25,725 nucleotides of DNA from a virus. The notes beneath the pieces are model-generated. The model saw only the letters and a list, made by a program, of their open reading frames with translations. It searched no databases and had not been told where the DNA came from. A program made the translations under genes and the position numbers. Below, in pieces: positions 3,044 to 25,190 of this stretch (within the stretch, counting starts at the first letter, position 1; every line of letters begins with the position of its first letter). The stretch lies in the IMG/VR virus record IMGVR_UViG_3300044940_000245, positions 1 to 25,725 of that record. One strand, given 5' to 3'.

Positions 3044-3268
3044 ATGCCCACCCCTCAAGAAATGTACGAACTGTATCTGGCTGCGGAGCAAGCCGTGTTA
3101 CGCGGTCAGACCGTTCGGCTTGGCGAGCGCTGGTTGTCGCTCCCCGATCTTCAATGGATCATTGAGGGTCGCAAGTATTGGGAGCGTCAGGCCGCGCGCG
3201 AGCGCTATGGTGCGATGGGCTATGTCATCACCGCGACGTGGTCCTCAGGCGGGCCGGGGGACAGATGA
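3044..3268 (+). CDS. gpW-like head-tail connector protein
   Basis: This 74-aa protein has the size and gene position of lambda gpW, which binds below the portal after DNA packaging and makes the platform for the tail stopper. The pattern fits the family: an N-terminal helix with YLAAEQAVLRG, a short turn (QTVRLGERWLSL) and a second helix DLQWIIEGRKYWERQ, followed by a short flexible end. It starts at an ATG with GGAGG 11 bases upstream, and its TGA overlaps the portal ATG as ATGA. Similarity is at the level of pattern and length, but the position between terminase and portal strongly supports the call. Confidence 0.85.
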   Translation: MPTPQEMYELYLAAEQAVLRGQTVRLGERWLSLPDLQWIIEGRKYWERQAARERYGAMGYVITATWSSGGPGDR

Positions 3269-4731
3269 CTTTCGAGCCCACCTGGCTGGATCGCATCATT
3301 GGGGTATTCAGCCCGGCTGCGGCTTATCGTAGGGTTGCGTACCGCGCGCTGATGCGCTATCGCGGAGCGCAGCCGTCTAGGTATCGTAACCCGATCCCAC
3401 CTGATCGTCCTCAGAACCAGGTCGTCGCGGCTGACCGCATTAAGCTACGGTCTATTGTTCGCGACTTTGAGCGTAATCACGACATCGCCAGAGGCATCAT
3501 CACGACGCTGGTCGGTCGAATCGTAGGCACTGGCATCGAGGTCGATCCTCAACCACTTACTTCGTCCGGGAACCTAGACCAAGCTCTGGCGAGACGCATC
3601 ACTGATGCTTGGAACCAGTGGTGTGAGTCTCCTGAAATGTCGGGGCTTTATGATATGTCCCGACTCCAGCAGGTGGCGTGTCGAGCCTGGCTGCGGGACG
3701 GCGAAGTTTTCGCTCAGCTAGTATCGTGGAACCGTACCGCTGAGCAAGTACAGGTGCCGTTCGGCATCGAACTGATCGAGACGGACTGGTTGAGCTCCGA
3801 GACTGACGAAGCTCAAAATGCTTTCGACGGTATCGTAGTCAATAACTGGCGGCGACCAGTAGCCTATCTTTTCTATAAGCGGTCTGTTAACGATCAAGCT
3901 CCGACGACGCAGGAACTCGTACGCATTCCCGCTGAGCGTATCTTGCATCTCGCTTTGCGAGATCATGTTGGGCAATTGCGCGGGGTTCCGCTGTTGGCTT
4001 CTGCGATCGAGCGTCTTCGCGACCTGGCCGATTACGAAGAGTCCGAGCGACTGGCTGCCAAGGTGGCCAGCGCGATGACCGCAGCTATCAAGCGCGGTTC
4101 ACCGGACATGTTCGACCCCACGAAAATCGTAGACGGCGAACGTGAATGGACGTTCAAACCCGGCCAGATCTACGAGCTCGCTCCCGGCGAGTCGATTGAC
4201 GTGATCGATACTCGCCGTCCGAATTCCGCCTTGTTTGATTTCCGTAGAGCGATGCTGAAGGCGGTCGCGGCAGGGACCGGCGCGCCGTATTCTTCAATCG
4301 CGCGCGACTACGAAGGGTCGTACTCCAGTCAGCGGCAGGAGCTAGTCGAGCAAAGCATGCTGGACCAGCTCTTGGCTCATCAATTCACGGCTGGATTCGT
4401 GCGACCAATCTACCGTGAATTCTTGCGGCACGCTATCGCTGTGGGGGTCTTGCCGGCAGGCGATCTCCGACGTATGTCAAACGCAGTGTACCTGACCCCC
4501 ACCGTGCCGTGGATCGATCCCCTCAAAGAGGCGCAGGCTTGGGTCGAATTGGACAAAGCAGGTTACGTGTCTCCCCAGTACATCATGCGGAAGCTCGGTC
4601 TCGACCCAGACGATGTTCGGAGACAGCGTGAGGAATGGGATCGGGAACCGACCGGTCAACTGGACGTCAAGACCGCAGCCCCTGCGTCTAACGAGCCCGC
4701 TGGACGCGTTGTGAGGATCTATGGCGCGTGA
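3265..4731 (+). CDS. Portal protein, lambda gpB family
   Basis: The 488-aa subunit should form the ring at the unique capsid vertex through which DNA enters and leaves, and on which the terminase docks. Family hallmarks are visible: an early basic segment, the RNHDIARGIITTLVGRIVG region (70-88), RLQQVACRAWLRDGEVF in the first half, and a C-terminal core around 325-362 with RRAMLKAVAAGTGAPYSSIA and YSSQRQELVE, a near-signature of lambda-type portals. The ATG at 3265 is chosen over an upstream in-frame GTG inside the connector gene because it makes an ATGA overlap behind a G-rich stretch. The C-terminus overlaps the next gene by 11 bases. Confidence 0.95.
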   Translation: MTFEPTWLDRIIGVFSPAAAYRRVAYRALMRYRGAQPSRYRNPIPPDRPQNQVVAADRIKLRSIVRDFERNHDIARGIITTLVGRIVGTGIEVDPQPLTSSGNLDQALARRITDAWNQWCESPEMSGLYDMSRLQQVACRAWLRDGEVFAQLVSWNRTAEQVQVPFGIELIETDWLSSETDEAQNAFDGIVVNNWRRPVAYLFYKRSVNDQAPTTQELVRIPAERILHLALRDHVGQLRGVPLLASAIERLRDLADYEESERLAAKVASAMTAAIKRGSPDMFDPTKIVDGEREWTFKPGQIYELAPGESIDVIDTRRPNSALFDFRRAMLKAVAAGTGAPYSSIARDYEGSYSSQRQELVEQSMLDQLLAHQFTAGFVRPIYREFLRHAIAVGVLPAGDLRRMSNAVYLTPTVPWIDPLKEAQAWVELDKAGYVSPQYIMRKLGLDPDDVRRQREEWDREPTGQLDVKTAAPASNEPAGRVVRIYGA

Positions 4732-6751
4732 GTTGTTCCTGTACGGCGACTTCGGTCTAGAGATCCGGGCAAAGGATTTCTATGACGAGCTCAAGACCAG
4801 CAAGGAAGACACGCTGGTCAGGTTGAGCAGCGCCGGCGGTGATCTGTCCGAGGCGGTTGCGATCGCAAATATGATCGTTGACCGCGGCAATGTGGATATT
4901 GCTATTGATGGTCTCGCAGCCAGCGCTGCGACCGTCGTGGCTTGTGCTGGCCGCAAGGTGACCATCGACGCAGGTGGATCGTACATGGTCCATGGACCGT
5001 CGCTGCTTGTGATCCAGGCCAACGCTGATCGCCTGCGCAAGGTGTCCGATTTCCTTGACAATTACTCGGACCAGATGCGTGAGTTCTACCGTCTGCGTCC
5101 GCAGATCAATCAGTCGAAGTTGGAGGAGTGGCTCAAGAACGGAGAAGATAACTGGTTCACGGCGTCGCAGGCGCTGGAACACGGTTTCGTAGACGAGGTT
5201 AGAAAGACCCCGTTCTTGGAGCTTTCGGCCCGCTTGCTCAACTTCATCCCGCGCACCATGAGGAGTTCTACAGTGCAGGAGTCGCCCCAGACCGCAACGC
5301 CTAGCCCTGTGCCGGCCGCGGTTGCCAGCCAGCCGGCCGCTAGCCCGCCGGCCGCGGTTGCCAGCCCGCCGGCCGCCAGCCCGCCGGCCGCGGTTGCCTG
5401 CCCGCCGGCCGCCAGCCCGCCGGTGGACCATGCCGCACAGATCGTGGCTCGCAATTCCAAGATCCGTGAGCGAGCTAAGCCGTTCATGCATCTGCCCGAG
5501 GTACAGGAGCTCGTTTACGACTACCTCACCCACGTCGACCGTCCCGTCGAGCAGTTCACCGATGCGCTGGTCGGGGTGCTCGCCAAGGGGACGCAGCCTG
5601 TGGTCTCGTATCCTTCGGTCCAGGGTGCCCCTGGCAAGGATGAGGTCACGAAGCTTCGCGAGGGTGTGACCAACTGGCTCACGATGCGGATGCGGCTCCC
5701 GGAGCGGTTCGGCTCTGCGTTCCAGGCCGGCGACCCGGGCGAGTTCCGTGGCATGACGCTGGTCAACATCGCCGCCGAATGCCTCGAGCGAGCCGGGGTG
5801 CGAACCAAGGGCCGCTTCCCGCACGAGTTGGTCACCGAGGCGCTGCAGAGCAATCGGCTCTTCGGCATGCAGACCGCGAGCGACTTCGCTGTGCTGATGG
5901 AAAACGTCATGCACAAGACGCTCCTCGCGGCCTACAACACGGAGCCGTACACCTGGTCGCGTTGGTGCTACAGCGTCACGGTGGACGATTTCCGCAACCA
6001 CATCAGGTACCGCACGGGTCTGCTGCCGCGACTGAAGACCCTCAGCGAGGACGGTGAGATCCCGTTCATCCGCATCCCCGACGGCGAGCGGTACATGGTG
6101 TCGGTGGATGAGAACGGTGTCCGCATCGGGCTCAGCCGCAAAGCGATCGTGGACAACGATCTTAACACCTTTAGCGACCTCGTCGCGCAGCTCGGAGCTT
6201 CCGCCCGCCGGTCTGAGGAGCTCGACGCGATCAACCTCCTCATGTCTAACCCGGTGCTGCCGGACGGCAATCCGTTCTTCCACTCCAGCCGCGGCAATGT
6301 CGCGACTGCGGCCGCTCCGTCGGAGGCGAGCTTCATCGACGTGATGCTCAAGTTTGCCGCGTTCAAGGACATCGCCGGAGAGGACTATCTGGACCTGTCT
6401 CCGGACTTCATGCTCTGCGGTAAGTCCGTGGAGCCTGTCGCTCGGCGGATCAACGCTTCGCAGTCGATGGTCGCCACGAACATGTCCGCTGGCGTGGTGA
6501 ACGTGGTCCAGAACACTTACAGCGAGATCATCTCGACGGCGCGTCTCGGTCCGGCCTCCACGGCGTGGTACTCGTTCGTCCGTCCGTCTCGAGTACGGTC
6601 GTTCGAGATGGTCCATCTGTCGGGCGCTGAGGCTCCCCAGATCTCCCAGGAGCAGCCGTTCAACACGACTGGTGTCCAGTGGAGGATCGTGCACGTGTGG
6701 GGTGTCGCGCCGGCTGATCCTCGCGGCTGCATCTACAACGCTGGAGCCTGA
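4721..6751 (+). CDS. ClpP-like prohead protease / major capsid protein fusion
   Basis: One 676-aa frame joins three parts. Residues 1-165 are a ClpP-like serine protease with likely Ser68 in GLAASAA, His91 in MVHGP and an Asp near 113. Residues 185-300 hold an Ala/Pro-rich linker with a 12-residue repeat and a helical, scaffold-like stretch (RNSKIRERAKPFMHLPEVQ onward). Residues 310-676 are an HK97-fold capsid protein of the known fusion family, with FRGMTLVNIAAECLERAG, MENVMHKTLLAAYNTEP, RRSEELDAINLLMSNP and STAWYSFVRP. The protease should process the prohead and the capsid part build the shell. Codon use is more GC-biased than in neighbouring genes, as expected for an abundant protein. A good internal ribosome binding site and GTG at codon 185 may also yield a 492-aa scaffold-capsid product. 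Confidence 0.95.
   Translation: MARELFLYGDFGLEIRAKDFYDELKTSKEDTLVRLSSAGGDLSEAVAIANMIVDRGNVDIAIDGLAASAATVVACAGRKVTIDAGGSYMVHGPSLLVIQANADRLRKVSDFLDNYSDQMREFYRLRPQINQSKLEEWLKNGEDNWFTASQALEHGFVDEVRKTPFLELSARLLNFIPRTMRSSTVQESPQTATPSPVPAAVASQPAASPPAAVASPPAASPPAAVACPPAASPPVDHAAQIVARNSKIRERAKPFMHLPEVQELVYDYLTHVDRPVEQFTDALVGVLAKGTQPVVSYPSVQGAPGKDEVTKLREGVTNWLTMRMRLPERFGSAFQAGDPGEFRGMTLVNIAAECLERAGVRTKGRFPHELVTEALQSNRLFGMQTASDFAVLMENVMHKTLLAAYNTEPYTWSRWCYSVTVDDFRNHIRYRTGLLPRLKTLSEDGEIPFIRIPDGERYMVSVDENGVRIGLSRKAIVDNDLNTFSDLVAQLGASARRSEELDAINLLMSNPVLPDGNPFFHSSRGNVATAAAPSEASFIDVMLKFAAFKDIAGEDYLDLSPDFMLCGKSVEPVARRINASQSMVATNMSAGVVNVVQNTYSEIISTARLGPASTAWYSFVRPSRVRSFEMVHLSGAEAPQISQEQPFNTTGVQWRIVHVWGVAPADPRGCIYNAGA
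5261..5275 (+). promoter_or_regulatory. Candidate internal ribosome binding site and GTG start for a separate capsid product
   Basis: AGGAG (5261-5265) stands seven bases before an in-frame GTG (5273-5275), exactly where the protease domain ends and the linker begins. Initiation here would give a 492-aa protein without the protease. Lambda offers a precedent in the same place, where the scaffold Nu3 starts in frame inside protease gene C. Use of this site is inferred, not shown. Confidence 0.45.
5311..5418 (+). repeat. Three 36-bp tandem repeats coding an Ala/Pro-rich linker
   Basis: Copies lie at 5311-5346, 5347-5382 and 5383-5418. They encode PAAVASQPAASP, PAAVASPPAASP and PAAVACPPAASP, and differ by only a few bases. 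The unit is a multiple of three, so changes in copy number would lengthen or shorten the linker without breaking the frame. Such segments are usually flexible, which fits a hinge between the protease and the scaffold-capsid part. Confidence 0.92.
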
Positions 6752-15900: not shown

Positions 15901-16280
15901 GCGATCTTCGTTACCTCGAGATCCCCTACCGACCTTGGGGCATGTCGTTTGAAGGGTGCGACTGCTGGGGCTTGGTCGTGTTGTGGTATCGACACGAACT
16001 AGGTCGTGAGTTGCCAACCGTCGCTCCTAGTGGTAGGCTGACCGCGCTGGAGTTTAGCAAGGCGATCAAACATGTCCACGCTCCTCTCTGGGTTGAAGTC
16101 CTTCCTCCTTACCGTCGCGGGGATGTGGTCTATTTCCCGGAACCGAATCCGCATTGTGGCGTACTCGTCAATTCTTATCTTCTCCTTCATATTGATCATC
16201 AAGTTGGCCATGGCTATTTTTCTAGATTAGATGATCCGATGCTGCCTCCCAAGCGCGTGATCTATAGATGGCGCACCTAG
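15897..16280 (+). CDS. NlpC/P60-type tail peptidase, gpK-like
   Basis: This 127-aa cysteine peptidase carries the NlpC/P60 catalytic pattern: Cys23 in GCDCWGLV (20-27) and His86 in PHCGVLV (85-91), with a further His at 98 near the usual third residue. Tail-borne members, including lambda gpK, are thought to cleave peptidoglycan cross-links or process tip proteins. It keeps only the peptidase half, which is common in this group. The GTG at 15897 starts inside the previous stop (GTGA). The end overlaps the tip protein gene by 13 bases. Confidence 0.9.
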   Translation: MSDLRYLEIPYRPWGMSFEGCDCWGLVVLWYRHELGRELPTVAPSGRLTALEFSKAIKHVHAPLWVEVLPPYRRGDVVYFPEPNPHCGVLVNSYLLLHIDHQVGHGYFSRLDDPMLPPKRVIYRWRT

Positions 16281-19200
16281 TCGTAGCAGCGAGACAGAAC
16301 CCGTTTGCTCTCGACCGGGTCGTAGAGCAGGTTGGTCCGACTACTGCTCGCGCGCTGGTTCAGCGATATTTTCCTCCTAGTCATCAACCGTATGTAATCG
16401 TCTTTCTTGATGGAAAACTAATCCCTATAGAAGACTGGGATAAGGTCATTACTAGTGGCCTGGTCGGCTTGACCATCAGGCCGCAGAACAGAGAACTAGT
16501 TCGCATCGGACTGTTCTTCGCCGTCGTCGTTGCAGCCGCGGCAACGGGGCAATGGGCGGCATTGCCCGTCGCGCAAGGCGGGCTAGGGCTTGGCGTGCTA
16601 GGCTCTAGCGCGCTAGGCGCGGCTGTAGGGCTGGCTGGCGGGTTGTTGGTTAATGCCCTAGTGTCGCCTGCAGAGCTCTCGACCGATGGGGGTCGAGGTT
16701 CTAAGTCTTGGTCGCTGGATCGCGTTTCTAATCAGGCCAGGATCTATAGCGCGGTTCCCCGTGCTTTTGGACGAATTCGTTATTACCCTCCTCTAGCTGC
16801 AGAACCGATTCCCTATCGTAAGAAGCGTCGAGAACATGTTCAGGTCGCGCTGTGCTGGGGATATGGTCCTCTTGAGGTAACGGATATCAAGGTCGGTAAG
16901 ACTCCGATCACATATTTTGATAATGTGCAGTCGGAGTTCTTCCCTGGCGACCCTGGCGTGGTGCCGGAATCAACTCTGTTCTCTCAAGATGTTCATGTCG
17001 AGACCATCAATGAAGAAGTCGTCAATGAGTTCGGACCTCTGGTTCGTCGGAGTGGTGTCGCTCCCGAGCAAATCGAGGTAGTACTCAGCTTCCCCCGAGG
17101 CCTCGTAGATTTGTCAGATGGAGATACCGATGAACTCGCTGTTACGTTCGAATTAGAGTATTCCTATGTTGATTCTGGGGTCTGGCAGACTTGGGTTACA
17201 GAGACCGTCAGACGAGAAACTACGAATCCATTCAATTTGACCTACACGCTTGATGTGACTGGTCAGGTTGATGTGCGTCTAACTAGAATCACTAGGGACC
17301 GCAAAGACTTCGCGAAATCAGATTCATTGTTCTGGCGGTTTTTGATTTCCAGGCGCGCTGGTAATCCCTTCAAATTGCCGGGAGTCGCTATCAGCACTTA
17401 TGACTTTCGTTCAGGGGAACAGCTCAGCGGGTCTGTAGACGAGATCAGTGGAGTTATCTCTGCTAAGGTTCTAGACTGGAATGGTTCCGATTGGGTATTG
17501 CGGGAAACGTCCAATCCCGCGTCCATAGCGCGCGCTGTTCTGCAGGCATCCGGTGCCTGGGAGCCGACTCCGGATAGTGAGTTGGATCTGGCCGGGTTCG
17601 TCAGATGGCATGAATATTGCCAGCAGCATGGGCTTGAATGTAATATCGTCATAGACTGGGACAACGCCACACAGGAAGAAGTACTCCAGCTAGTCGCCGC
17701 TACTGGCGACGCCATTGTACCGTTTATCAATGGTCGACGTGTTCCGGTCATAGATTCCGTACAGACGACCCCTGTACAGATGTTCACTCCTTTGAACATC
17801 AGAGATCTGAAATCTGATCTAACCTTCATAGACGTTCCGCACGGGCTGAGAGTCAGGTTCTTGAACGAGGAACGGGACTACGAGCCTGATGAGCGAGTCG
17901 TCTATATGGACGGCTACGGACCAGATAACGCATCGAAATTCGAAGATTTCGAGATCCCCGGCGTTACGAGCCCTAAGCTGATATATCGTCACGCGCGCCG
18001 GCGACTAGCTGAGATCTTGCTGCGCCGCGAGCGTTTCACATGGCTGTCGCCGTGGGACTGGTTAACTTGTCGTGTAGGCGATCTGGTGCACCTATCCCAT
18101 CACGCGCTGGGAGTAGGTGTTTCGTGGTCGCGTGTTCTTAAAGTCTACACAGATCGAGAGAACCGAATCACTGGTGTTGATTTAACTTCCCCGGTGAATC
18201 TTAAAGAAGAAGGATCTTACGGTGCTCGTATCAGAGGGGCTGAGATCTATACCGTGGCGATCAGTAGATTTACTTCCACGCATCTTGACTTTGAAACGCC
18301 ACTAGACGGCTCTGTTGAGGTCGACGATCTGGTCTCGATTGGGGACCTTCAAGTAGAAACTATTCCACTACTGATTACTAATATCCGACCAGCGGAACAG
18401 TTGATGGCGGAGATCACCGCCGTACGGTATCATGATGGTGTCTACAAAGCAGACACCGAAGTTATTCCCCCATGGTCTAGTGGCATCTCATCTTCCTTGT
18501 TAGAACCACCTATCGTCACGTTCGCGATATGGGATTATCGAACTAGCGAGGCTGTGCTGGCTGTCGAGGACACTGGAACATACACTCAACCGCTGGCTGC
18601 TCTGGAAATTGGATGGAGATACAATCCCGAAGATACGATGACTATTAACTCGTATCCCCCAGACACGAGTTCCGTCAGACTGACCCTGGCAAGGGACGCG
18701 CTCGTCCAGGGCAGGTGGCGAACGCTGAACGGTCGCGTCAGCTTGTGGAGCCCGACCGTTCGCGTTAGCACATCGCGTGCAGCGCAGACCATTTCTTCGT
18801 TTGGTGTCAGCTCAGCGTGGATCGATTCAGACTACTTGCGCTGGGCGATGCGAGATACCAGTAAGCACTACGATGGTTGGCAGATCAGGTATGGACCTCC
18901 CGGAGTGCCGTGGGAACTGGCTACTCCGCTCCACCAGGGGTTGTTGCAGACACAGTATTTTCCGATCAGCAATCTTCCGTTCTATAATTGTGAGCTATTG
19001 ATCACTGTCTATTATAACGGTGTCCCTAGCGAACCGTACCGGCTGCCCTACGCTCCCGCTGATCTAGGTGGGGATCGGTATGATCTATGGTCAGTGGACT
19101 ATAAAACTCTGGGATGGCCAGGCGTACTGCCCTCACACGTACAGAAAACAGATATTTTGACGAGTGAAAATTCTCTATGGATGTTTCCTGCTCCTGGCGA

Positions 19201-19747
19201 GCCGATGTTTCCTGCGCCAGAAGCGCCCATGTTTGTTCCCAGGGGAGCTGAATTCACGTACAGAACAGAGTTCGAGTTCCCTGACGGGTTCGAACCTTCT
19301 GATGTTTTGATTATTCAACCTATTGGAGTCGTGAGCGCTCTACAGTATACTAGGGAGGTCAGGACACTAGTCGAGACAGCATTTGATGACGAAACTGTCT
19401 TTGACGATGGTACGCGCTTCACGGAAGCTGGGGTTGGTTCTTATCTGCCTTGGCCTGGTGAGTTGCGATATCAGGCGGGAGCCAAGATCGAAGTTACCAT
19501 TGTCGCCAGCTACCTCGAGCACCTCTATTTCAAAATCCGAGGTAGAGCGCGAAAGTATTATCAAACGAATGTCGTCGTTTCTCCTGATGGGACCGTTATC
19601 CAGCTCGAGGCCCCGTATCGATTCGTGCTTGCCGTGCATGCGATACCCATCGGTAATGCGACGGTCCGGGTGATATCTAAGGAGCCGGAAGTGGTAGTCG
19701 CGTCAGACGTGGAAACCCTGGCGGACATCACAGTGGAGTATGTCTAA
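16268..19747 (+). CDS. Tail tip / host specificity protein, gpJ-like
   Basis: The 1159-aa protein is close in length to lambda gpJ (1132 aa) and holds the tip slot after the NlpC/P60 gene. Residues 1-75 are a small folded domain. Residues 79-133 are a long hydrophobic Gly/Ala-rich stretch ending LLVNALVSP, then NQARIYSAVPRAFGRIRYYPP, as in many J-like proteins. The middle holds tail-hub-like parts (CQQHGLECNIVIDW, IRDLKSDLTFIDVPHGLRVRF, RRERFTWLSPWDWLTCRVGDLVHL). After about residue 700 come fibronectin-type-like sandwich segments. The end has a repeated motif (MFPAPGEP / MFPAPEAP / MFVPRG, from about 972) and a distinct beta-rich tip that may contact the receptor. No Shine-Dalgarno is evident, so coupling is likely. 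Confidence 0.88.
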   Translation: MAHLVVAARQNPFALDRVVEQVGPTTARALVQRYFPPSHQPYVIVFLDGKLIPIEDWDKVITSGLVGLTIRPQNRELVRIGLFFAVVVAAAATGQWAALPVAQGGLGLGVLGSSALGAAVGLAGGLLVNALVSPAELSTDGGRGSKSWSLDRVSNQARIYSAVPRAFGRIRYYPPLAAEPIPYRKKRREHVQVALCWGYGPLEVTDIKVGKTPITYFDNVQSEFFPGDPGVVPESTLFSQDVHVETINEEVVNEFGPLVRRSGVAPEQIEVVLSFPRGLVDLSDGDTDELAVTFELEYSYVDSGVWQTWVTETVRRETTNPFNLTYTLDVTGQVDVRLTRITRDRKDFAKSDSLFWRFLISRRAGNPFKLPGVAISTYDFRSGEQLSGSVDEISGVISAKVLDWNGSDWVLRETSNPASIARAVLQASGAWEPTPDSELDLAGFVRWHEYCQQHGLECNIVIDWDNATQEEVLQLVAATGDAIVPFINGRRVPVIDSVQTTPVQMFTPLNIRDLKSDLTFIDVPHGLRVRFLNEERDYEPDERVVYMDGYGPDNASKFEDFEIPGVTSPKLIYRHARRRLAEILLRRERFTWLSPWDWLTCRVGDLVHLSHHALGVGVSWSRVLKVYTDRENRITGVDLTSPVNLKEEGSYGARIRGAEIYTVAISRFTSTHLDFETPLDGSVEVDDLVSIGDLQVETIPLLITNIRPAEQLMAEITAVRYHDGVYKADTEVIPPWSSGISSSLLEPPIVTFAIWDYRTSEAVLAVEDTGTYTQPLAALEIGWRYNPEDTMTINSYPPDTSSVRLTLARDALVQGRWRTLNGRVSLWSPTVRVSTSRAAQTISSFGVSSAWIDSDYLRWAMRDTSKHYDGWQIRYGPPGVPWELATPLHQGLLQTQYFPISNLPFYNCELLITVYYNGVPSEPYRLPYAPADLGGDRYDLWSVDYKTLGWPGVLPSHVQKTDILTSENSLWMFPAPGEPMFPAPEAPMFVPRGAEFTYRTEFEFPDGFEPSDVLIIQPIGVVSALQYTREVRTLVETAFDDETVFDDGTRFTEAGVGSYLPWPGELRYQAGAKIEVTIVASYLEHLYFKIRGRARKYYQTNVVVSPDGTVIQLEAPYRFVLAVHAIPIGNATVRVISKEPEVVVASDVETLADITVEYV

Positions 19748-20682
19748 TGACGTACAGTAGAGCAGTCATCTTCGTTGAGGGAGACAATACAAATCCGAAT
19801 AACCGCACTAGACTGGATCAGTTCATTAAGGGTGTTTATGATCAGATCAGCACCTTGCCGACGAACTATACTGGTCTCGCAAATAAGATCGTAAAGGTCA
19901 AATCAGACGAAACCGGACTGGAAGTTGGCGAAGTTCCGGTTCAACATGTTCGTTCTCCGATCGTCTTGGGGACCGGCCAAACCATCGGCGCTGATCACGT
20001 GGCTCAGCGTCTTGTGTCTGAGTCCGGTGTGATTACCTTTTACGAAAGGTCGGTCATTCTACGAAATTCAGGTACTCCGCCGGCTAGCAATGTCACTGTG
20101 ACTCTGCCCGGCGGCGCGTCTGTGACCGTTGGAATGTGGTGGAGCATCATGGCCGCGCCTGATCAGGGCGGCACCTTGACCATACAGGCACCGAGCGGTT
20201 CTACTATTAATGGAGAATCCAGCATCTCCCTGGATGGTCCGAATGCTGAAGCTATCGTGACCGTTGGAGCCGTCTCCGGCGCGAATGTGACGTATTACGC
20301 TAGCGGTCAGATCAGTTCGGGCCAGACATTTACTGGTCCGACTATGTTTGCTGGAAGTGTGAATTTCAACAAGCAAGAGGTCTATGGCGGGTGGATGAAG
20401 CTCGGTCCTACTATTGACAATAGTACTTCTTCACCGATTGTTCTTGGAGATTCTGACATCGGCGTAGAACGGCGCATCACAGCCACTACGGCTAAGACTA
20501 TTCAAGTACCGACTGGTTGGCGAGGTGTGTTCCACGCGCTGAATGAAACCTCGAGTACGACACATGTTCTTAGTCTAGAAGGGGGAGGTTCAGTAAACGT
20601 TGGGCCGGGAAAGAAAGTTATCGTCGATGCCAATGGTACGAAGCGCAACGTGGCGATCATCACATATGACCTTAGTGGGTGA
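19747..20682 (+). CDS. Tail appendage protein, function unknown
   Basis: The 311-aa product starts in a TAATG overlap with the tip protein gene, so it is probably another tail appendage. Residues 1-60 look like a short N-terminal attachment part (NRTRLDQFIKGVYDQISTLPTNY). The rest is rich in Thr, Ser, Gly and Val and predicts as beta strands, with an imperfect pattern shared by RSVILRNSGTPPASNVTVTLP in the middle and GWRGVFHALNETSSTTHVLSLEG near the end. The second form resembles a module in the partial gene at the right edge. No enzyme motif was seen. It could be a short fibre or an adaptor for the next protein. Confidence 0.6.
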   Translation: MTYSRAVIFVEGDNTNPNNRTRLDQFIKGVYDQISTLPTNYTGLANKIVKVKSDETGLEVGEVPVQHVRSPIVLGTGQTIGADHVAQRLVSESGVITFYERSVILRNSGTPPASNVTVTLPGGASVTVGMWWSIMAAPDQGGTLTIQAPSGSTINGESSISLDGPNAEAIVTVGAVSGANVTYYASGQISSGQTFTGPTMFAGSVNFNKQEVYGGWMKLGPTIDNSTSSPIVLGDSDIGVERRITATTAKTIQVPTGWRGVFHALNETSSTTHVLSLEGGGSVNVGPGKKVIVDANGTKRNVAIITYDLSG

Positions 20683-20688
20683 CTCATC

Positions 20689-23600
20689 ATGCGTAGGCGT
20701 GTTGCCGCTGGTCTTCGCCCGCTGACCTCTGTCAGCGCTGCTCCCGTTACAGTAGAAACCGTCACTGAGCGGGTGGATTTTGCTGATTTAATCAACCCGG
20801 CTAACTGGAATATTACTAATAAAGATTCTATCAAAGGTGTTGCAGAAGCGAGCTCAGATTCCACGTATGAGAATCACAGCTTCACCGCAGGAGGAACATT
20901 CGGCGCGACCGCCGTGTTCAGCGCTGTTTCTGGACAATTGTCCGGCGACCTTTTGCTACGAGTGCGAGCCAAGGTTTCCACGACTACCGGCGCGCCCAAG
21001 GTCAGAGCATCTCTTTATGAAGGAACTGTTCTTAAGAGTACGGGCACATGGCAGAATCTAACAACGTCCTTTGCCACCTACACGTGGACGTATTCTTCGA
21101 ACCTGTTATCTGACAAAACTGGAGCGCAGGCTAGATTCGTATTCGAGTTCAGCGATTCTGCCAGCGCGCCGAACGTCGGGTACTACACGGTCTCGGCGGT
21201 TGATCTGATTCGAACCCGCACTAGTCAAACTGTCAGCGCTGGTCCACAGAATCCGGCGACCTATCCTACTGCCTCTAGATCTATTCTGGTATCGAATAGC
21301 CAGGAACTGCAAGCAGCCTTGCAGGCGGTTCAGCCTGGAGAACATATCGTTCTTAGTTCGGGCTCCTATAGCGGACAGTTTTCTGCGTTCAAGCACGGCA
21401 CCAAGGAGAGCCCGATTGTAATTCGTGGTGAACAGCTTCATACCGCGGAGTTCACTGGATCTCTTGAACTGCGAGGTAACCACACCTGGATCTATGGAGT
21501 ACAATTCAACGCTGCGACGTTGCGCCTGATCGGAGAAGGAACTGTCGCTAGCCGGTGTTATTGGCGCCAGGGTCAAGACGACATTTCCGCGGCCTGTGTG
21601 TCTGTGACAGGAGTTGATTGCCAGGTCGGGTTCTGTGAATTCGATCGCTATCGTGCGAAAGCAGTTGAAGTCCTGCCGGGCGCTGGCGCGCGCAGGACTT
21701 GGATTCATAGAAATTATTTCCACGACAGCAACACCGATCAGCGGTATCAACTCTATGGCATCGTCATAGGGTCGCCGTCAGACGAGCTCGTCGAGCTCGG
21801 TGGGGTGGTGGAGTACAATCTTTTCCGCAGATGTCTGTCCAAACAGAACAACTTGATTCTAAACTTCTGTAGTCGGGTCTCGATCAATAACAACACGATC
21901 GAACAGTGCTACGGCGCGCTGATCAACAATCGCGCCGGTAATGGCAATTCTATCAAGGGCAACTGGATCAGTGATCCACAGTCTGGCGTAGGGGGAATCA
22001 ATAATTACGGAGCGGATAACGCTATCCACGGCAATTTCTGCTCTGGTAAGATTTCGATCTATGCTGGTAATCGTAGTCCATTGACTATTGACGCTAGAGA
22101 CACGCCAGCGTCGCTGCGAGCATCTGTTGTCAGCAACATCGCCACCGTCATCGTTGGAGCGACTCCTCCTAGCGACGTACCCGCTACTGACACTGTCGTA
22201 GAAGCTAACCAAGGAACTGTCCAGCGCCAGCGTGAGGTCGGCACAACCGTCTCTGCGACCTCGTCGATCAGCGTCCCGGCCCCTGTTCGCTTGGTGGACA
22301 CAGACGTCGGTCCTTACGCGAACATGAGCGGAGGCCTCAATCGTCCTCCCGCTGAGCCGTCTGGGGCTCGCATTGTCAACGTCACGAATTCTACAGAACT
22401 GACTAATGCACTTCAAAACGCCCAGGTCGGCGACAAGATAGTCTTGGCCAATGGGACGTATTCTGGGAACTACACGGTCAACGTTGCCCAGGTCGCCCTT
22501 GTCGCTGCGTCGATCAACGGCGCTTCTATCACTGGCGTCTTGTCTTTGCAGGGGATGTATCAACAGGTCTATGGTGTCAGGTTCTCTGGAGGGGGTCGCG
22601 TAGAGGTTTCGAATGTCGGACAGAAAGTGGTTCGTTGTCGCTTCGATGGATGCACTAGTTCGCCTGTAATCAAGGTCTCAAAAGAGGACTGCGAAATTTC
22701 TTGGTGCGAATTTGTTGGCCTACAAGCCCAGGGCGTGAACGTCCGCCCTGCGGACGGTGGTCGCAGGGCCTGGATCCACCACAATTACTTCTACAACTCT
22801 ACGTCCAGCGGCACCGATCGCCATGCGATTTTGCTCGGGGTGGCTGGAACGGATATCTCGCTGCAGGCTGCCTGTGTTGTGGAATTCAATCTATTTGAGA
22901 ACGTTACGACTCATGATCAGGTAATTCAGGTATTGTCCAGCACGAACATCTTGCGATACAACACGTTCGTCAATTGCGGAACCAGCCGCTATGTCCAGAT
23001 TCAGTACGGTGTGAACAACGCGCTACTCGCCAACTACTTTGATCAATCTGGCGGGTGGCGAATTATGGATCGCGACAACTCTGCGGTGGGCAATAAGTGT
23101 CTGGGTGGTCAATTTCAAGTCAGCGCCGGAACACACGACCCAGACACCAGTCCTGGATGGCAGACTCCCCCGCTGGACTACCCCGCAGCCAAGCGATCTG
23201 TGGTCGCCGGTAATGATGGAGCACTCCTGGTAGGACATGTGTTTCCTGGTCGTTCTGGGGACCAGACGGTACCAGCCAATGCGACTGAAGTCAGTGGTCA
23301 CGTGGGAACGATCACTTACGGTACTCATTCAGGAACAACGACACCCTCCCTTAACAGAACCGTCCCGGCCGCTGTTCGGTTGACTAGCGCTGACGTTGGT
23401 CAGCAGGCTGGCCAACTCCCCACTACGACTCCTTCTGGCTGGCCGGCCGGCTGGACAGTTCCTTCTCTGAAGTCGTATCACGGCATTGGACAAGCGTTCA
23501 ACTACTGGGGAGGTCTGTACGTCTTCCAGCGCTATGATCAGTGGCTTGGCAGACCGACGAATGTAGCGACTGTCTGGGCAGAGCAGAACGTTCCAGATTG

Positions 23601-24495
23601 GGACAGCTTGGCCGGAGGCGCTGGTCCAGACGACACTACTTGGTCCGGTCAGATCAATATGTGGAATATCACGAAAGCCTTGGACACGTCTCTCTGGCCC
23701 GCTGATCGACCGGTTATTATCTGTATCACTGGGCTGCCAGCGACTCATGCTGTGCGGTTGTCCAACAATCAATGGCAGAACGCCAATTCCTGGCAGCAGG
23801 TTGCTAACGGTGAATTTGATGTCTACTACACTAGACTGTTCCGTAGACTAGCTTATCGTTGTCAGCAGGCCGGCAAACCGGCGAACAAAGTCATTATCCG
23901 CTTCGCTTGGGAAATGAACGGTACCTGGTATAATCATGCTGTTGGATCAGACAAAGCAGGGTTCATCGCTGCGTGGCAGCGCATCGTAACTCTCGGGAAC
24001 GCTGCAGTCGCTGCGATCATGGGTTCTGGTAAGCGGTTCCTCTGGGAGTTTGGACCGTCTTATCAGCTACGCTTCGGGAATCGCACGAGCGAGCGCTTAT
24101 GGAATATCTATCCTGGCGATGCTTATGTAGATATCGTCTCGTTGAGTCTCCACGATAACATTGGCATCAAATCTTCAGCAGATTGGCAGCGCTTGTTGGA
24201 ATACGACAAGAACAATCAGCTAGAAGGTCTGCATCCGTGGTTTGATTTTGCTCGCTCGAGGGGCAAGCCAGTTGGCATCAGCGAGATGTCGTTCAATCAC
24301 ACGGCTAAGCAGTACTTCCCGGTCACTGAGAATCCAGAAGCAGCTTGGGCAGGCTTTGAAACGCTGCGTCAGCGATACATCGACGCGTTCCTATATTTTG
24401 TGTACTTGTCGGATAGCTACACTTCTATGTTTGATCGAGGGTCCTGGGGAGAGCCTTATCGTCAGCGATACAAGCCTGGTGGAGTCGCTCCATAA
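20689..24495 (+). CDS. Tail-associated polysaccharide enzyme: beta-sandwich, two PL6-like beta-helices, GH26-like glycosidase
   Basis: This 1268-aa protein has four parts. Residues 30-175 look like a carbohydrate-binding beta sandwich. Residues 198-545 and 560-905 are two related parallel beta-helices like polysaccharide lyase family 6, each opening with a SxELxxALxxxxxGxxIVL pattern, then a GxYSG turn, WIHxNYF and VExNLF. Residues 925-1268 resemble GH26: RFAWEMNGTWYNH with probable acid/base Glu1075, FLWEFGPSY, YPGDAYVDIVSLSLHD and GKPVGISEMSF with probable nucleophile Glu1199. The canonical PL6 Lys is not seen in either helix and the Arg only perhaps in the first, so lyase activity is doubtful; the GH26 glutamates are present. 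The likely role is binding and cutting capsule or exopolysaccharide; the substrate cannot be read from the sequence. It starts six bases after the previous stop. Confidence 0.85.
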   Translation: MRRRVAAGLRPLTSVSAAPVTVETVTERVDFADLINPANWNITNKDSIKGVAEASSDSTYENHSFTAGGTFGATAVFSAVSGQLSGDLLLRVRAKVSTTTGAPKVRASLYEGTVLKSTGTWQNLTTSFATYTWTYSSNLLSDKTGAQARFVFEFSDSASAPNVGYYTVSAVDLIRTRTSQTVSAGPQNPATYPTASRSILVSNSQELQAALQAVQPGEHIVLSSGSYSGQFSAFKHGTKESPIVIRGEQLHTAEFTGSLELRGNHTWIYGVQFNAATLRLIGEGTVASRCYWRQGQDDISAACVSVTGVDCQVGFCEFDRYRAKAVEVLPGAGARRTWIHRNYFHDSNTDQRYQLYGIVIGSPSDELVELGGVVEYNLFRRCLSKQNNLILNFCSRVSINNNTIEQCYGALINNRAGNGNSIKGNWISDPQSGVGGINNYGADNAIHGNFCSGKISIYAGNRSPLTIDARDTPASLRASVVSNIATVIVGATPPSDVPATDTVVEANQGTVQRQREVGTTVSATSSISVPAPVRLVDTDVGPYANMSGGLNRPPAEPSGARIVNVTNSTELTNALQNAQVGDKIVLANGTYSGNYTVNVAQVALVAASINGASITGVLSLQGMYQQVYGVRFSGGGRVEVSNVGQKVVRCRFDGCTSSPVIKVSKEDCEISWCEFVGLQAQGVNVRPADGGRRAWIHHNYFYNSTSSGTDRHAILLGVAGTDISLQAACVVEFNLFENVTTHDQVIQVLSSTNILRYNTFVNCGTSRYVQIQYGVNNALLANYFDQSGGWRIMDRDNSAVGNKCLGGQFQVSAGTHDPDTSPGWQTPPLDYPAAKRSVVAGNDGALLVGHVFPGRSGDQTVPANATEVSGHVGTITYGTHSGTTTPSLNRTVPAAVRLTSADVGQQAGQLPTTTPSGWPAGWTVPSLKSYHGIGQAFNYWGGLYVFQRYDQWLGRPTNVATVWAEQNVPDWDSLAGGAGPDDTTWSGQINMWNITKALDTSLWPADRPVIICITGLPATHAVRLSNNQWQNANSWQQVANGEFDVYYTRLFRRLAYRCQQAGKPANKVIIRFAWEMNGTWYNHAVGSDKAGFIAAWQRIVTLGNAAVAAIMGSGKRFLWEFGPSYQLRFGNRTSERLWNIYPGDAYVDIVSLSLHDNIGIKSSADWQRLLEYDKNNQLEGLHPWFDFARSRGKPVGISEMSFNHTAKQYFPVTENPEAAWAGFETLRQRYIDAFLYFVYLSDSYTSMFDRGSWGEPYRQRYKPGGVAP

Positions 24496-25190
24496 TGCCG
24501 GCCAGCCTGTCTGCGACATCTGTTGCTCTTTCAGACGCGGTCGCCAGGACTTCCTACTCGTTTAGTAACGTCAATTTCCCGTCTGGCAAGATTCTTCTGG
24601 GCGTGAAGGTAAGCAAGACGGCGTCTGGAGCCCCGTCCATTGCATCTATCACACATCCTAATCTAAGTAATATCACACTGATCAGAGAAGCTACTCACGC
24701 TAATTCCACCGAGAACCGAGGAACCAGGATCGCTCTGTATTCCGCGGACAGTAGTGGGGGTTCTGGAACCCTCACTATCAATATCAACAGCACCGACGCT
24801 TGGAGCTGCCAGGTCTTGGCCTGGCAAGTCTCTGACATAGACTCGATCATTGGACAAGCGGATGGTCTATCCTCTGGGGACACAGATGTAGATGTCACCG
24901 CTAGTCCAGCGACCGGCGGAGCAGCACTAGGGCTCGCGCTGGTCGGTTGCTACAGGACCAACACGTCTGGAACCATTTCGATTTCAAATTGGACAACAGC
25001 AGATAATTCCACGAGCGCAGGCTACTTCACATTTCGGGGATCCGGATTTACTGGAACCCCTCCATCAGCTCCTGTGGGCACGCTCAGCGCTGGCTACATG
25101 CGACCCGGAATCATGGTTGCTGTTACTTGGTCTGAGATCGCAGCTTCTTCCGGAGCAAAGAGCGCGCTGATCCGCGCACCTGGGGGATGA
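24495..25190 (+). CDS. Small beta-rich phage structural protein, function unknown
   Basis: The 231-aa protein overlaps the previous stop as TAATG and belongs to the adsorption cluster. It is rich in Ser, Thr, Ala and Gly with alternating strands (KILLGVKVSK, GTRIALYSADSSGGSGTLTI, AWSCQVLAWQVSDID, ALGLALVGCYRT), like a single jelly-roll or immunoglobulin-like sandwich. No signal peptide, membrane segment or catalytic motif is seen. It could be a fibre tip, a decoration or an adaptor. The family was not recognised, and the call rests on position and composition. Confidence 0.6.
   Translation: MPASLSATSVALSDAVARTSYSFSNVNFPSGKILLGVKVSKTASGAPSIASITHPNLSNITLIREATHANSTENRGTRIALYSADSSGGSGTLTININSTDAWSCQVLAWQVSDIDSIIGQADGLSSGDTDVDVTASPATGGAALGLALVGCYRTNTSGTISISNWTTADNSTSAGYFTFRGSGFTGTPPSAPVGTLSAGYMRPGIMVAVTWSEIAASSGAKSALIRAPGG

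Follow-up and report, generated by a model that had tools for sequence, protein, structure and literature searches.

This study concerns a stretch of viral DNA of 25,725 nucleotides, positions 1 to 25,725 of IMG/VR record IMGVR_UViG_3300044940_000245, which we refer to as the window. Within it we focused on an intact open reading frame (ORF) that encodes a protein of 1268 amino acids (aa). The protein consists of an N-terminal region predicted to be a beta-sandwich, two tandem beta-helices of the PL6 fold and a C-terminal GH26-like barrel. The last three folds and their order had been proposed in an original prediction made from the sequence of the window, and were upheld by Pfam, PDB, profile and model searches, at a level well beyond chance. 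The structure prediction suggested there as a check was run on the first helix and on the GH26-like part, and the models ranked PL6 lyases and GH26 entries first. The gene and its parts are located as follows.

20689..24495, + strand: whole gene, encoding the 1268-aa PL6-like / PL6-like / GH26-like protein (intact ORF)
20770..21222, + strand: N-terminal region, residues 28-178, predicted beta-sandwich (AlphaFold strands at 74-176, low to moderate confidence)
21274..22323, + strand: first PL6-fold beta-helix (copy 1), residues 196-545 (Pfam PF14592, PDB phmmer, AlphaFold model)
22369..23403, + strand: predicted second PL6-like beta-helix (copy 2), residues 561-905 (Pfam PF14592, PDB phmmer, likeness to copy 1)
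23476..24492, + strand: GH26-like barrel, residues 930-1268 (BLAST, profile, hhalign, model)

The N-terminal region gave no Pfam or other family match of note, and is possibly a carbohydrate-binding or tail-attachment module. In the AlphaFold model of residues 1-549, confidence was high only for the core of the first helix.

Two PL6-fold beta-helices and their missing lyase residues

Pfam family PF14592 (Chondroitinase B) matched the whole protein over two stretches (E 8.5e-20), and each half alone scored above the curated cut-off of 24 (copy 1, 48.7 bits, E 7.6e-13; copy 2, 40.2 bits, E 2.8e-10). By phmmer against the PDB, the best match of copy 1 was 7o84 (E 7.6e-11), and copy 2 matched a PL6 lyase at E 4.1e-5. 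The fold of copy 2 is assigned by sequence, and that of copy 1 also by its AlphaFold model, which is a beta-helix. Foldseek ranks 1-24 for this model were all PL6 lyases (best E 4.5e-11), and VIA-align superposed it on the PL6 lyase 7o7t with a Z score of 34.9 and a root-mean-square deviation of 2.8 over 329 aligned residues. It should be added that the fold list of copy 1 also holds a beta-helix titled as a surface adhesin (PfbA, Z 28.0), and that a viral fold library returned general beta-helix and tail-protein matches, none of them named PL6 among the best 50 of 1725 rows.

The two copies share 31 % identity (E 8e-41) and were grouped by the tree with 100/98 support. The helices probably arose by ancient duplication, an event we regard as likely rather than shown because long branches meet in the tree, as the tool itself warned. 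In their right-handed beta-helix and their PF14592 match they resemble PL6 alginate lyases and chondroitinase B (Pedsa0632, 7o84; AlyGC, 5gkd; BcelPL6, 6qps; 1ofm). Unlike these enzymes, they stand in tandem within one phage chain.

For a comparison of catalytic residues we used 38 bacterial PL6 rows; the window protein itself served as query, and the 32 loci behind the rows are mostly from Lentzea and Bacteroidota. One row (L045) stops short of the catalytic columns, leaving 37 to be scored. The column of the catalytic Lys held Lys in 35 of these 37 rows and Arg in the other two, the catalytic Arg column held Arg in all 37, and the adjacent column held His in 35. The corresponding places in the window protein, as given by the alignments, are listed below.

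21865..21867, + strand: F393 (copy 1), at the place of the PL6 catalytic Lys (AlyGC K220, BcelPL6 K249)
21931..21936, + strand: R415-A416 (copy 1), PL6 catalytic Arg retained, conserved His replaced by Ala
22933..22935, + strand: L749 (copy 2), at the place of the PL6 catalytic Lys
23002..23007, + strand: Q772-Y773 (copy 2), places of the PL6 catalytic Arg and His, both lost by MAFFT

A HMMER pairwise alignment of copy 2 to AlyGC put R767, not Q772, at the Arg column (AlyGC R241, BcelPL6 R270); by most alignments, the catalytic Arg is retained in copy 1 only. A416 and Y773 occupy the column of the catalytic-site His (BcelPL6 H271). The two acidic calcium-ligand columns, which match the Glu pair named for MhAly6 (PMC12028748), hold Gln/Asn and His/Gln in the two copies, with no acid in either. 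In BcelPL6, mutants of the Lys and of the Arg were inactive and His-271 was crucial (PMC6879350), and in AlyGC the exchange of Lys220 or Arg241 for Ala removed nearly 95 % of activity (as cited in PMC12028748). The absent calcium-ligand acids alone do not exclude a PL6 lyase, because one calcium-independent member has been described (PMC6879350).

The comparison was extended to the 57 columns in which at least 90 % of the bacterial rows share one residue, tallied by hand from the column list. Both copies keep the residue in 27 of these columns, one copy keeps it in 13, and neither does in 17. The residues kept twice include H340/697, N342/699, F344/701, E375/732, N377/734, N402/758, G417/774, N425/782 and N449/802. 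Among the 17 lost twice are the Lys, one calcium-ligand acid, the His, H444 (to N), H470 (to R/L) and R472 (to T/Y).

Copy 1 thus keeps the PL6 fold while its catalytic set, save R415, is lost. Judged by residues, beta-elimination by either helix is unlikely, because the Lys, the calcium-ligand acids and the His are gone and published Lys and Arg mutants of PL6 lyases are inactive or nearly so. The helices look like former lyases that would now serve binding or spacing.

Two observations were made among the bacterial relatives. Five Lentzea genomes (L016, L017, L021, L032 and L037) carry two PL6 genes close together, with catalytic Lys and Arg intact, and two PL6-like proteins of Verrucomicrobia (L023 and L026) have Arg at the place of the catalytic Lys.

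The GH26-like barrel and its relatives on phage contigs

The C-terminal barrel scored below the Pfam GH26 cut-off of 20.2 (13.9 bits, E 0.035, within the whole protein; 16.5 bits, E 0.0056, as a domain). Because a direct phmmer search of this part against the PDB returned nothing at E up to 10, its likeness to GH26 is drawn from intermediate sequences and from a structural model. BLAST linked the barrel to two phage proteins, L046 (E 6e-12) and L047 (E 8e-12), both of which exceed the Pfam GH26 cut-off and match GH26 enzymes in the PDB. A profile of the barrel and four phage relatives matched the GH26 lichenase CtLic26A at E 1e-30, and hhalign of the window sequence alone against six relatives aligned without it gave a probability of 99.0 (E 6.8e-18). 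Foldseek ranks 1-19 for the barrel model were lichenases or mannanases (rank 1 being an endoglucanase H chain), and VIA gave Z scores of up to 12.6 for GH26 entries and 10.3 for the first enzyme type of another title, a galactanase. Three sites were located in the alignments.

23911..23913, + strand: E1075, aligned with the GH26 acid/base (RFAWEMNGTW; several alignments)
24145..24153, + strand: S1153-L-H1155, replacing the GH26 Asp-x-Tyr motif (BoMan26B D261, Y263)
24283..24285, + strand: E1199, aligned with the GH26 nucleophile (GISEM; several alignments)

Both glutamates named in the original prediction, 1075 and 1199, are therefore kept, on the acid/base and nucleophile columns. In the profile alignment with CtLic26A, the lichenase entry 2cip has Gln at the nucleophile column, which we take to reflect a nucleophile mutant. 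Further GH26 subsite residues named in PMC6556568 are matched by R1071, G1078 and W1080. The barrel is thus like GH26 enzymes (lichenase CtLic26A, 2bv9 and 2cip; mannanases CjMan26C and BoMan26B) in fold, in both catalytic Glu residues and in the Arg, Gly and Trp around the acid/base.

The Asp-x-Tyr motif, which follows YPGDxYVD, sets the barrel apart both from GH26 enzymes and from its phage relatives. All 20 relatives have the Tyr and 19 of them the Asp, whereas the window protein has Ser1153-Leu-His1155 and is the sole one of the 21 compared sequences to lack this nucleophile-holding Tyr, which in GH26 mannanases forms a hydrogen bond to the nucleophile (PMC6381184). The nucleophile column itself holds Glu in 19 of the 20 relatives; only L061 departs from this, its gene being split at that point. 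In the HE motif, W1074 takes the place of the His; Trp also stands here in the phage relatives, most of which were found by a motif that fixes it. This His is likewise not kept in the GH26 xylanase branch, nor in a branch of unknown function (PMC6556568). Because the Asp-x-Tyr motif and the HE-motif His are both replaced, we call the barrel GH26-like and not a member of GH26.

These counts depend on how the relatives were gathered. Most of them were found with WE[MF]NG[NTS]W, a motif in which the columns of Trp, Glu, Asn, Gly and Trp are set in advance, so that the counts for the columns of W1074, E1075, N1077 and G1078 are not independent. The Asp-x-Tyr and nucleophile columns lie outside that motif, and one of two motifs in an earlier scan held the nucleophile Glu. 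Identical copies were left out of the count of 20 domains, and so were the weaker matches (E above 1e-20), namely L004_3_309 and the second fragments of both L061 and L062.

GH26-like domains were found at 26 loci on phage contigs, duplicates and the window's own phage included; 20 distinct domains were compared. Those of L046, L047, L048, L053 and others are the nearest relatives of the barrel that we found, at 21-30 % identity. Twelve of the proteins were scanned with Pfam, and some of them carry partner domains, namely CBM60 (L046), malectin (L058 and L065), LamG-like (L068) and immunoglobulin-like domains. A 1210-aa protein, L048, combines Pfam Beta_helix (E 8.4e-7) with GH26 (E 7.8e-8); its contig carries portal-like, weakly minor-tail-like and virion-structural-like genes. 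L048 is also the only one of the 12 to match Chondroitinase B, weakly (E 2.8e-4, below the family cut-off), and none matches it twice, unlike the window protein.

The combination of folds had been described as unusual, and it is rare; it is not wholly unique, since L048 joins a beta-helix to GH26 on another phage contig. The doubled PL6-like helix with a GH26-like domain was seen only in the window's phage among the sequences searched. Among the open-access papers listed, judged by titles and the openings of abstracts, none names a phage protein that unites PL6-like with GH26-like domains. A comparable annotated case is Caudovirales GX15bay (MK557849), in which an 'endoglucanase' that matches the phage GH26-like proteins L002 and L048 lies beside a 'mannanase'. 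GX15bay differs from the window in having several glycosyltransferase genes near the endoglucanase, and the window protein itself had no match among INPHARED phages at E 1e-5. L046 had none there at 1e-3.

Several of the phage loci have features of their own. In L061 and L062 the GH26-like gene is broken into two frames just ahead of the nucleophile, by error or by a real break. Two GH26-like ORFs lie a few kilobases apart in contig L004. In L047, the gene before the GH26-like gene (3214-4785) has a partial match to arabinofuranosidase B and a match to GDSL esterase, hinting at a pair of esterase and hydrolase. The start of a 409-aa phage-contig protein (L051:5926-7152) matches both helices over 67 residues, with some 40 % identity and E values of 1.7e-9 and 2e-7.

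A probable tail protein with putative former lyase helices and at most one hydrolase

On balance, we lean towards reading the 1268-aa protein as a tail-associated protein that binds a host-surface glycan, with two helices derived from lyases and one hydrolase at most. The tandem helices, probably derived by duplication and by now without beta-elimination chemistry, would act as long rigid glycan-binding or spacer modules, and the C-terminal barrel, if active, would be the only part that cuts. Its substrate would be a beta-linked polymer of neutral hexoses or pentoses in the capsule or exopolysaccharide of the host, cleaved by a two-glutamate retaining mechanism with E1075 as acid/base and E1199 as nucleophile, and with His1155 replacing the usual Tyr in holding the nucleophile. 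The fusion of phage-contig GH26-like domains to modules of the sugar-binding type (L046, L058, L065 and L068) is consistent with a glycan-binding function, as is the presence of the adhesin PfbA in the fold list of copy 1.

Several points weigh against this reading. The 17 columns lost in both helices also cover positions of Gly, Phe, Leu and Asn. The loss therefore reaches beyond the active site, and general divergence could account for it; R415 in copy 1, in turn, is a remnant of PL6 chemistry. The barrel model, built from 5 sequences, is of only moderate confidence (mean predicted local distance difference test score, pLDDT, 59.8; predicted template modelling score, pTM, 0.69), and the lost Tyr may mean that the hydrolase is dead too. 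Finally, no close homologue of the protein was found outside the same phage, so that its odd residues were seen in this one phage.

The fate of the barrel separates this reading from the next, in which none of the three sugar-enzyme domains is active any longer and the protein is a wholly non-catalytic adhesin, a receptor-binding fibre that only binds host glycan. We consider this improbable, but a serious alternative. The PL6 catalytic residues are gone from both helices save R415, and the barrel lacks both the Tyr found in 20 of 20 relatives, which hydrogen-bonds the nucleophile (PMC6381184), and the Asp found in 19 of 20. However, both GH26 glutamates are kept together with R1071, G1078 and W1080 (counterparts in PMC6556568), which would not be expected of a freely drifting site. 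The barrel may be active, altered or dead, all three being compatible with its sequence. In GH10 enzymes the nucleophile is bonded by a His, and by analogy His1155 could still do so here.

A more speculative version of the favoured reading, and an unlikely one in our estimation, is that the protein is a depolymerase of new build, in which two former PL6 lyases form a glycan-holding track that feeds a GH26-derived hydrolase with a His-held nucleophile and a cleavage specificity undescribed for GH26.

It is slightly less likely still that the helices cut sugars by a different chemistry, for which new residues in the groove of the PL6 fold would be responsible. Beta-helices in the fold list of copy 1 include lyases, hydrolases, epimerases and fructotransferases, and phage tail enzymes are among them (Sf6 tailspike, Phi92 gp150 and K5A lyase). 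Some acidic and His residues are also kept in both copies (E375/E732 and H340/H697), but these are invariant in the bacterial PL6 rows too and therefore look structural.

We give little credence to the possibility that the protein is an auxiliary carbohydrate enzyme, released or exported by the host, and not a virion part. Three phage GH26-like proteins (L053, L056 and L072) have strongly hydrophobic N-termini that resemble signal peptides, so that export by the host is possible for some of the phage GH26 enzymes, and a paper on mangrove soil viruses counts viral GH26 among auxiliary carbohydrate enzymes (PMC6460857). The N-terminus of the 1268-aa protein, in contrast, is not strongly hydrophobic, and its gene sits in the tail module after TipJ.

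Least probable is the reading of the original prediction, in which both helices would be working PL6 lyases and the barrel a working GH26 hydrolase, together attacking a mixed uronic acid / neutral sugar polymer: despite the clear PL6 and GH26 likeness and the R415 kept in copy 1, we rejected it on the residues of both helices, as neither has the Lys base (F393/L749), the catalytic-site His (A416/Y773) or the calcium-ligand acids, and mutation of the Lys or the Arg nearly or fully inactivated AlyGC (cited in PMC12028748) and BcelPL6 (PMC6879350). With no lyase chemistry in the helices, there is no ground for a substrate that contains uronic acid.

The main value of this protein, on the reading that we favour, is the contrast between a confident fold and lost chemistry. 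It cautions that fold matches in phage tails are not activities, given two helices that score above the PL6 profile cut-off without most of the residues that define the lyase. Phage contigs carry a scattered set of GH26-like domains, with a second beta-helix/GH26 fusion among them, in which depolymerases against beta-linked surface glycans could be sought, and the natural Tyr-to-His variant would probe how far GH26 catalysis depends on that Tyr.

Gene neighbourhood and the phage

The genes that flank the 1268-aa ORF are as follows.

16268..19747, + strand: TipJ / central tail fibre J-like protein, two genes upstream (PHROG 31, E 1.5e-68)
19747..20682, + strand: 311-aa gene immediately upstream, no family match found
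24495..25190, + strand: 231-aa gene immediately downstream, no family match found

By family matches, the window carries in order a large terminase, a portal, a joined protease/capsid gene, a minor tail protein match and a tape measure, followed by further virion and minor tail matches and the TipJ-like tail-tip protein, after which the 1268-aa ORF is the second gene. From this order we infer a phage of the siphovirus type. The tail setting given in the original prediction is supported by gene order only, and by its position the 1268-aa protein is probably a tail protein. The TipJ-like protein also matched NF040662 (E 1.7e-37, 129 bits, below its cut-off of 140). Six bases separate the stop of the 311-aa gene, by position probably that of a tail accessory protein, from the start of the 1268-aa ORF, whose end overlaps the start of the next gene by one base (TAATG). 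A resemblance of the downstream 231-aa gene to the gene after GH26 in L053 was considered and dropped, as BLAST gave 0 hits at 1e-3.

An identical 1268-aa protein is encoded in a second IMG/VR contig, L001 (33,993 bases), which differs from the window at 3 bases in 11,037, one of them within the gene and synonymous. In viral_contigs, the only relatives of TipJ were in the contig of the same phage and in one of 4,073 bases that shares an identical stretch. The terminase matched 665 records scattered across many genera. The 70 TipJ records were most often from Achromobacter (21) and Pseudomonas (12), with the top scores going to Rhizobium and Bradyrhizobium phages. These matches support no claim as to the host, and none is made. 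Finally, a single 676-aa ORF of the window (4721-6751) matches head maturation protease families as well as a 'major head and protease protein' family (PHROG 133 and 4523), and protease and capsid seem to be joined in it.

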